In this document: piece after piece, positions 8,726 to 9,959 of the stretch | Numbering within the stretch: position 1 is the first letter of the stretch | How the letters are laid out: every line of letters starts with the position of its first letter | NCBI GenBank assembly: GCA_018658605.1 | Contig: JABHUV010000167.1 | Location: 1-9,959, forward strand | Length of the DNA stretch: 9,959 bases | DNA from: Planctomycetaceae bacterium | GTDB taxonomy: Bacteria; Planctomycetota; Planctomycetia; Pirellulales; Pirellulaceae | Reading direction: 5' to 3' | Translations under genes and position numbers: made by a program | Notes under the pieces: model-generated | The model's input: only the letters and a program-made list of their open reading frames with translations | What the model was told of the DNA's origin: nothing | Database searches by the model: none

Positions 8726-8893
8726 AGGAAAAACAAAAAACAAGCCCGTTTTGATACGAACGATTTTGTAGCTTTTGTGCTACTTTAACGCGTTAGCGTA
8801 GTATCCTGCTTCCCAACAACAATACTCAAGTAATGCGATAATTAAAATTCGTTGAATTCGTATCAAAAACGGGTTGTTTGTTTCTTGTTTCCT
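8726..8893. repeat. Long imperfect inverted repeat (35/37-nt arms, about 96-nt centre)
   Basis: The left arm 8726-8760 and right arm 8857-8893 are near reverse complements. The core CCCGTTTTGATACGAA at 8745-8760 pairs with 8857-8873 with one extra A, and the match continues outward through A-rich/T-rich sequence to AGGAAA/TTTCCT at the ends. The centre holds a perfect hairpin GTAGC-TTTTGT-GCTAC (8768-8783) and a palindrome TAACGCGTTA (8786-8795). It starts 20 nt after the mraZ stop and ends 57 nt before the RNase-like start. On both strands the distal arm is GGG followed by a T-rich run, as in a bidirectional terminator, but the loop is very long. A non-autonomous (MITE-like) insertion is the other reading; I see no clear target-site duplication. 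Confidence 0.7.
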
Positions 8894-8913: not shown

Positions 8914-9399
8914 TTAGTTACTCAGTTCGTTAAACAGATCTCGGAACTCGGGCATTTGTTCGTTCAAGTATTGGACCCACTTTTCTGGGTGCCATATTTC
9001 CAAGCACACCGACGCTCCCACAACAAATAATGGTTGCCCTGGGTCGACTCCGAGAAACTCCCGAAATCCTTCGGGTATTACCAAGCGACCACGGCCGGCC
9101 ATTTGAATAGCGGTGTGTCGAGTGGAGAGTAACCGGCCAAGTTGCAGCAGTCGATTTGTTTGTTGCTGTAGTTTGCCTGCCTTGAGTTTGTCCTCGACCC
9201 AGTGAATTCCCTGCTGTAGGTGTTGTTGCCATGGATTGGCATTCCAAAGACTCAGACAACCAGGCCGTTCTTTGGCAAGTATCAAATCGGTTCCCTGTTG
9301 ATGTAGCCCATCGGCAAGCTCCGCCGGTACGGACAGCCGAAACCGTTGATCGATTGTGCGACGGAATTCTCCGAGCAACAGAATTTCCTGAGGGGGCAT
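8914..9399 (-). CDS. mraZ: MraZ, SpoVT/AbrB-type transcription regulator
   Basis: A 161-residue MraZ with two AbrB-like halves. The first is GEFRRTIDQRFRLSVPAEL (D17, R21 of the DX3R signature). The second is QMAGRGRLVIPEGFREFLG, where the Arg (R105) is present but the usual Asp is A101. VVGASVCLEIWHPEKWVQYL closes the second half, as FELWDETTW does in E. coli. MraZ forms ring oligomers, binds TGGG repeats and represses the dcw cluster and itself in E. coli. Here the next gene is the RNase HII-like protein; no rsmH, ftsL or mur gene is in view. Two TGGG-N7-CCCA palindromes lie 108-164 bp before the ATG, suggesting autoregulation. The 9399 start fits the family; there is no Shine-Dalgarno. Confidence 0.9.
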   Translation of the reverse strand: MPPQEILLLGEFRRTIDQRFRLSVPAELADGLHQQGTDLILAKERPGCLSLWNANPWQQHLQQGIHWVEDKLKAGKLQQQTNRLLQLGRLLSTRHTAIQMAGRGRLVIPEGFREFLGVDPGQPLFVVGASVCLEIWHPEKWVQYLNEQMPEFRDLFNELSN

Positions 9400-9506: not shown

Positions 9507-9521
9507 TGGGCATAAAGCCCA
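9507..9521. promoter_or_regulatory. Palindromic site 1, TGGG-N7-CCCA
   Basis: Reads TGGGCATAAAGCCCA, a perfect 5-bp inverted repeat around ATAAA. It lies 108 bp before the mraZ ATG. Its centre is 41 bp (close to four helical turns) from site 2. A MraZ operator is the leading idea because MraZ recognises TGGG. Confidence 0.5.
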
Positions 9522-9547
9522 CAGAAACTGTAATACCTAATCAAAAG

Positions 9548-9562
9548 TGGGTCGATAACCCA
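9548..9562. promoter_or_regulatory. Palindromic site 2, TGGG-N7-CCCA
   Basis: Reads TGGGTCGATAACCCA. The inverted repeat extends one base each side (GTGGGT at 9547-9552 with ACCCAC at 9558-9563). It lies about 149 bp before the mraZ ATG. It could also form an RNA hairpin, but no T-run follows, so an operator is favoured over a terminator. Confidence 0.5.
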
Positions 9563-9691
9563 CAAAATAAAGTTTAGTCATTTGGTTAGGGATTGCAAGT
9601 GTTTTAGGGAAATTTTTTGGATACGTCGCTGAAAGCAGGTCCGTTAGAAAACATAGATGCCTTGGATATACACGAATCCCTAGGACTGACG

Positions 9692-9697
9692 TATAAT
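9692..9697 (+). promoter_or_regulatory. Perfect -10 box for the acidic-repeat gene
   Basis: TATAAT lies 41 bp before the ATG at 9739, placing transcription start near 9704 and giving a leader of about 35 nt. No recognisable -35 sits at 15-19 bp upstream; TTGGAT at 9662-9667 is 24 bp away. An activator or an alternative sigma factor may be needed. Confidence 0.5.
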
Positions 9698-9699
9698 GT

Positions 9700-9714
9700 T
9701 GGGCACAGAACCCA
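9700..9714. promoter_or_regulatory. Palindromic site 3, TGGG-N7-CCCA, over the predicted transcription start
   Basis: Reads TGGGCACAGAACCCA and begins 2 bp after the TATAAT box, so it would span roughly -4 to +11. Binding there should block transcription of the repeat gene, which makes it a candidate repressor operator. It has the same half-sites and the same 7-bp spacing as sites 1 and 2. Confidence 0.55.
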
Positions 9715-9738: not shown

Positions 9739-9959
9739 ATGACTTTTGCAGATCAAGACGAAACGGCTAACGAAGAAGTTCAGGATGAAGCGGCTAATGA
9801 AGAAGTTCAGGATGAAGCGGCTAATGAAGAAATTCAGGATGAAGCGGCTAATGAAGAAATTCAGGATGAAGCGGCTAATGAAGAAGTTCAGGATGAAGCG
9901 GCTAATGAAGAAATTCAGGATGAAGCGGCTAATGAAGAAATTCAGGATGAAGCGGCTAA
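9739..9959 (+). CDS. Unrecognised acidic tandem-repeat protein (N-terminal part, runs off the right edge)
   Basis: I do not recognise this gene. The ATG at 9739 starts a short unique leader, MTFADQDE, followed directly by seven copies of a nine-residue unit, (A/T)ANEE(V/I)QDE, and the beginning of an eighth. Seventy-three codons are visible and the frame is still open at the window end; the final taa is out of frame. Each unit carries four acidic and no basic residues. There is no signal peptide or membrane segment. In a helix a nine-residue period places successive Val/Ile residues on opposite faces, so a classic coiled coil is unlikely; disorder or a charged single helix fits better. A TATAAT box and an operator-like palindrome lie just upstream, and GAG at 9730-9732 is a weak Shine-Dalgarno. 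The frame beginning at 9743 is also open but has no ATG before 9785, so this frame is preferred. Confidence 0.6.
   Translation, partial: MTFADQDETANEEVQDEAANEEVQDEAANEEIQDEAANEEIQDEAANEEVQDEAANEEIQDEAANEEIQDEAA
9763..9959 (+). repeat. 27-bp tandem repeat array, at least 7.3 units
   Basis: Units start at 9763, 9790, 9817, 9844, 9871, 9898 and 9925, with 8 bp of another unit at the edge. Units 2-7 are identical except for the first base of codon 6 (GTT or ATT). Unit 1 also differs by ACG for GCG and AAC for AAT. The codon-6 pattern is G,G,A,A,G,A,A, so 9790-9870 and 9871-9951 are exact 81-bp copies of each other. This points to recent duplication of a three-unit block by slippage or unequal recombination. 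Confidence 0.97.

Follow-up and report, generated by a model that had tools for sequence, protein, structure and literature searches.

The window, by which we mean the whole 9,959-base stretch of DNA analyzed here, carries an orphan mraZ gene and an open reading frame (ORF) of tandem repeats that is read away from it; the neighbors of mraZ in the window are a weakly matching RNase-HII-like gene and a gene for a class V aminotransferase, with no dcw gene found beside it (Table 1). Searching both strands, we found three copies of the palindrome TGGG-N7-CCCA, all located between mraZ and the divergent repeat ORF, against an expectation of 0.07 copies in shuffled windows (sd 0.27; three copies reached in 0 of 200). 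The original prediction had described these sites, and its positions, eight fixed bases and 7-bp gap, the 41 bp between its first two sites (here boxes 2 and 1), the absence of a further copy from the window and the excess over chance all proved exact. Its treatment of the three sites as alike holds for their form, which is identical, but not for their distribution, as boxes 1 and 2 form a clade-wide pair while box 3 belongs to the closest relatives only. Between mraZ and the RNase-HII-like gene we also observed a candidate structured RNA, possessing a long closing stem followed by a U-run (fold z-score -5.4), changes on both sides at 7 of 31 consensus pairs (10 sequences) and a single match apiece in 6 of 7 close genomes. 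Rfam returned nothing for it, even at E<=1. This element may be a strong terminator or an undescribed RNA, for which 6S-like is our guess.

Table 1. Coordinates of the features discussed, in positions of the window; box sequences are given in the sense of mraZ.
Feature	Position	Strand	Description
Candidate structured RNA	8735..8882	-	in mraZ sense
Orphan MraZ paralogue, 161 aa, proposed box binder	8914..9399	-	PF02381 match and AF2 model
Box 2, promoter-distal	9507..9521	-	TGGGCTTTATGCCCA, preceded by G
Box 1, promoter-proximal	9548..9562	-	TGGGTTATCGACCCA, preceded by G; box 2 lies 41 bp away
-10 hexamer TAAACT, predicted mraZ promoter	9571..9576	-	8 nt before box 1
-35-like hexamer TTGCAA	9593..9598	-	16-nt spacer; CTTGCAA invariant in 11 aligned sequences
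TATAAT of predicted divergent promoter, repeat gene	9692..9697	+	present in window, L001 and L002
Box 3	9700..9714	-	TGGGTTCTGTGCCCA; two bases past divergent TATAAT
Divergent ORF, 27-bp tandem repeats (DEAANEEIQ unit)	9739..9957	+	runs off window end

Evaluating the protein, we found that it scores 57.6 bits against PF02381, above the curated cut-off of 23 (E 1.2e-15), and is 99% identical to protein P0001 and 84% identical to a Planctomycetota bacterium protein. The MraZ family is defined by a DxxxR motif in both halves of the protein. The window protein keeps the first as DQRFR, while the second-half aspartate was present in 3 of 88 orphan rows (6 unread) versus 37 of 39 canonical rows (2 unread), the orphan motif mostly reading AGRGR with alanine in place of aspartate. 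The orphan proteins thus mostly lack the two-half signature, which has no bearing on their Pfam membership because that membership is not based on DxxxR. The AF2 model (pLDDT 89.7) agreed with the family assignment in that 15 of 15 PDB matches at E<=0.001 were MraZ chains (best 6.4e-9), at about 20% identity to the MraZ structures. The M. genitalium MraZ-promoter cryo-EM structures 9r4j and 9sz7, the latter with four boxes, are alike in fold (Foldseek E 8.1e-9 and 9.2e-9) at this same low identity but, in the available part of their records, hold an array of boxes where the orphan loci have palindromes.

To place the boxes in a wider set, orphan loci were collected by a genome scan with a 24-sequence alignment, in which 232 loci were confirmed; the 80 best of them, the window and 11 loci from an even sample of the phylum (see below) together made up 92 orphan loci. 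At least one exact site lay within 700 bp upstream of mraZ in 73 of the best 80 of 232. Applying a pair rule (spacing 40-43, with the 16 core bases allowed <=3 mismatches, of which <=1 in the better box) to these 80 plus the window, we recovered the pair in 80 of 81 loci, 44 of them at 41 bp, 35 at 42 and 1 at 40, with both boxes exact in 42 of the 81. Across the full set, the pair (<=3 mismatches over 16 core bases, 41 or 42 bp) was kept in 90 of 92 orphan upstream regions, 53 of them exact, whereas 0.9% of base-shuffled regions passed the rule at <=3 mismatches; the shuffles used for this, the direct-repeat and the spacing scores preserve base content and not dinucleotides. The two misses were L005, which lies at a contig end, and L041, which has no proper pair, its sites being 63 bp apart and its 40-bp pair probably spurious. 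Either box follows the consensus GTGGG-WWW-NNN-R-CCCA in the same orientation, with variable flanks and a variable spacer, and for sites with <=1 mismatch the spacing was 41 (n=49) or 42 (n=35), every other value from 20 to 70 being seen at most once; both spacings correspond to four helical turns. Conservation before mraZ in relatives, which the original prediction had offered as a check, was thereby borne out, both in these 90 regions and in all 12 of the sampled genomes described below. Among individual loci, L040, L053, L057 and L076 lack the last A in both boxes (CCCT or CCCG), a concerted loss that may track a protein change. Two Blastopirellula-like loci (G133:C1:180451 and L059, at -221) have an extra TGGG-N7-CCCA, placed 98 bp upstream of their box 1, and third sites in other lineages lie at other distances.

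An independent sample of 199 Planctomycetota genomes, drawn evenly with G001 as the center of the draw and searched for the paralogue with a 48-row alignment at E<=1e-15, allowed the pair to be evaluated genome-wide. The exact pair occurred in 13 of the 199 genomes and the paralogue in 12, such that the pair adjoined the paralogue in 12 of 12 genomes and occurred in 1 of the 187 without it (Fisher p 2e-18, a value that ignores kinship, several of the 12 being close kin). In the single exception, G080, the pair begins 9 nt past the stop codon of an ORF that looked by eye like a signal peptidase, and we attribute it to chance; a reversed-pair control gave zero in every genome except G184 (10 per strand). 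The exact pair was single in 10 of 12 genomes, and in each of these it lay at mraZ. The bare 8-base motif, by comparison, occurred 32-60 times per genome in 6 relatives versus 18-25 for its reversed control, about a twofold excess, and specificity was confined to the pair and the fuller consensus. The genome-wide scan that the original prediction had suggested therefore upheld promoter specificity for the pair but not for TGGG-N7-CCCA as such, which is common. When the second box was loosened, matches were seen in 43 of 100 genomes of the family of G002 versus 9 of 100 for the reversed control, and these matches were not all at mraZ. The frequency of the bare motif speaks for the boxes being chance, or similarity inherited without function; against this, the cores and their spacing stay while flanks and spacer vary, and the pair separates genomes with and without the paralogue almost completely. 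On these two grounds we consider chance refuted for the pair, to which this verdict is limited, and its residual probability negligible.

We then compared the orphan loci with canonical ones. PF02381 was found in 51 of 59 phylum genomes, and our 39 canonical loci comprise the 30 best-scoring from the PF02381 search, eight from chosen genomes and L147; the proteins of L034, L049, L061 and L070 were placed with the orphans by hand, the motif rule having grouped them otherwise. Canonical upstream regions carry the GTGGG core as direct repeats with a 10-bp period (e.g., L107, L118, L131, L136, L137). At least two GTGG at 10-bp steps were present in 30 of 39 canonical loci, nine lacking them, versus 2 of 92 orphan loci (L023 and L027) and 1.7% of shuffles, while the palindrome pair at <=3 mismatches was present in 0 of 39 canonical versus 90 of 92 orphan loci. 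Both paralogues co-occur in nine of 18 chosen genomes, and in these the pair accompanies the orphan copy in 9 of 9 (exact in 8, one mismatch in the other) and is missing from the canonical copy in 9 of 9 (5-7 mismatches). Under the strict direct-repeat rule the same genomes gave 4 of 9 canonical and 1 of 9 orphan copies, the latter (L027) in G009, where the canonical copy does not fit the rule. In a quick tree of 78 proteins (39 of the 92 orphans and the complete canonical set of 39), the orphans lie on one side of a single branch (SH-aLRT 97, length 2.5), the tree program flagging long branches among the canonical rows. Site geometry changes once on this tree, at the paralogue stem, when the 9 canonical rows fitting neither rule are left uncounted. 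As for genomic context, the orphan did not adjoin rsmH in any of the 14 genomes in which rsmH was found, whereas in 2 (G060, G164) of the 5 such genomes with a canonical copy, that copy and rsmH share a strand and are at most 0.7 kb apart.

Turning to the promoter, an alignment of 11 sequences (the window, L001-L004 and L006-L011, with L005 not aligned) retained TA.ACT in 11 of 11. The best -10-like hexamers across 90 orphan loci were TAAACT (28), TAGAAT (13), TAGACT (9) and TACACT (8), in a search near box 1 that favored TATAAT-like words, and the commonest gap from this hexamer to box 1 was 8-9 nt. The mraZ promoter did not appear in the list of a simple consensus promoter scan. Setting +1 about 7 nt past the hexamer, box 1 would lie over the predicted start and box 2 at about +43 to +58, so that the orphan boxes would share with canonical operators a position downstream of the -10 at the start of transcription, given this predicted promoter.

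Because the predicted -10 precedes both boxes, placing them within the predicted transcript, they could instead be RNA hairpins in the mraZ 5' UTR, acting as an attenuator or as a protein-RNA site, and in the window box 1 does score as terminator-like on the mraZ strand. The three inner G-C pairs hardly vary and so give no argument against RNA pairing. The outer pair departs from T-A in 13 of 90 loci for box 1, with 2 still standard (both T-G), and in 26 of 90 for box 2, with 8 standard (7 T-G, 1 G-C). At positions 4-6, A and T are about equally frequent and G or C seldom occurs, which is odd for an RNA reading; no recurring U-run follows the boxes in the listed loci (by eye), an Rfam search returned no match, and helical phasing at 41 or 42 bp is a property of DNA. 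The largely uncompensated changes in the outer stem pair and the A-or-T tolerance led us to reject an RNA leader, which we regard as very improbable.

Box 3 shows a narrower distribution, being kept in the window, L001-L004 and L006-L009 and absent from L010 and L011 (L005 not aligned). In L003, L004 and L006-L009 it lies 141-143 bp upstream of box 1, and there the alignment shows neither the repeat-gene start nor the TATAAT at box 3. The first codons of the repeat ORF are common to the window, L001 and L002 in the alignment; for the divergent TATAAT no good -35 was seen, and it was absent from the promoter scan list. The repeat ORF, which had no homologues at E<=1e-3, is acidic with a 9-residue tandem unit, and its MTFADQDE start recurs in the divergent ORF of L002, the remainder being variable. 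We can only guess that in the lineage of the window box 3 adds control of the divergent repeat gene or forms a loop.

A wider regulon was sought in 7 close genomes with the single-box pattern GTGGGWWNNNNRCCCA, which returned 37 rows (21 at mraZ, 5 tRNA-like and 11 others) versus 8 for the reversed control. The tRNA-like rows represent one sequence, four being tRNA-Leu by ARAGORN and the fifth lying at a contig end. Eight of the 11 other rows were examined, and 8 of 8 fell inside stop-free frames of at least 100 codons; two of these (G001 and G002) are one coding site in the two closest genomes, whose DNA there is 89% identical, and are taken as shared coding sequence rather than a promoter target. 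The same pattern in 9 further genomes gave scattered sites, some common to the close kin G060 and G081, with 14 loci inspected for open frames only. The sites inspected in the 7 closest genomes included no second promoter target. The dcw cluster was considered as a target in trans and rejected, as none of the 14 rsmH loci (rsmH being found in 14 of 16 genomes) had a palindrome.

These results also bear on whether another, unlinked transcription factor might bind the palindromes and control mraZ, given that helix-turn-helix dimers usually bind inverted repeats and that the known MraZ targets are direct repeats. Such a factor would be at odds with several observations: the core of the half-site is identical to that of MraZ sites in the same phylum, presence of the pair tracks the paralogue, the sites inspected in the closest genomes yielded no second promoter target, and no neighbor other than mraZ is common to all loci. 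The recurring neighbors included frames resembling KAS and uvrC, each at about 20 of the 81 loci, loose counts given that the BLAST clustering chained antisense and low-complexity frames, as well as CTP-synthase-like frames (by eye), and among them, with ORFs scanned in part, no other regulator was recognized. We therefore judge an unlinked factor unlikely.

Instead, boxes 1 and 2 are very probably the autoregulatory operator of the divergent orphan MraZ, in which the half-sites have turned from direct to inverted. The original prediction had raised inverted half-sites as a different binding geometry for an orphan MraZ, and conservation, promoter specificity and the canonical contrast lend support to that idea, with a presumed protein-DNA contact. 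What proved to be the conserved core, beyond what that prediction could see, is the pair together with its four-turn phasing and an overlap with the promoter start. Orphan MraZ would read the canonical GTGGG core as a pair of inverted half-sites spaced 11 bp apart within each box, and with the boxes four helical turns apart on one face of the DNA, two bound units could touch, such that binding to the two boxes may be cooperative. With box 1 around the predicted start, binding would block initiation or promoter clearance, and autoregulation would thus be negative. While the pattern, its conservation, phasing, position and link to the paralogue are observed directly, we infer binding, repression and assembly.

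Known systems offer points of likeness and difference. AbrB-fold antitoxins such as MazE possess a related swapped-hairpin fold and bind inverted repeats in their own promoter; MraZ, unlike MazE, is a single-chain pseudo-dimer, and, unlike MazE systems, no toxin-like neighbor was recognized among the ORFs listed around the orphan loci. The original prediction gives the E. coli MraZ sites as direct repeats with 5-nt spacers. Canonical dcw MraZ boxes (B. cenocepacia, Mollicutes, other Planctomycetota and, by report, E. coli) likewise combine a GTGG core, a place upstream of mraZ and an MraZ fold, but they are direct repeats of 10-bp period (Planctomycetota loci L103-L140) before a gene in dcw, whereas the orphan gene lies outside dcw behind two boxes of inverted half-sites. 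In the available portion of the work on Burkholderia, the MraZ site consists of four 7-nt repeats with 3-nt spacers, again a 10-bp period, and lies in B. cenocepacia downstream of the -10 over the start site, as is predicted for orphan box 1; canonical MraZ is given there as a ring, an octameric toroid (PMC7761207). Canonical boxes are elsewhere given, in the accessible part of the source, as direct repeats of AAAGTG[T/G] (PMC8475190). MraZ at large is a widely kept bacterial transcription factor, and the accessible parts of that literature describe it as a reader of direct repeats. In titles and abstract openings, a scope with subscription journals mostly outside it, we found no paper on palindromic MraZ sites or on planctomycete MraZ binding.

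The proposed palindrome operator is a variant of MraZ autoregulation and not a new kind of system. A cyclic ring presents its rim to direct repeats, while reading inverted ones calls for a two-fold axis, and the assembly of the orphan is therefore most likely different. More tentatively, and with somewhat more doubt than confidence, we suggest that MraZ after duplication may have left the cyclic ring for a two-fold form (dihedral or dimer) that bridges the two palindromes and controls only its own gene, free of a division that does without FtsZ, as is reported for the planctomycete phylum in the available part of one paper (PMC12283558). Several points run counter to the autoregulatory operator: the two sides of the box consensus differ (WWW to the left, R to the right), which is unexpected for a plain symmetric dimer; a regulator with itself as its one visible target has no obvious physiological output; L041 is without a proper pair; the bare motif is in twofold excess genome-wide; and the direct-repeat rule has its exceptions among both orphan and canonical loci. 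The finding raises the question of what role MraZ plays once detached from dcw, and two paralogues in one genome that share one half-site in two geometries represent a natural experiment in the passage from a cyclic oligomer to a two-fold DNA reader.
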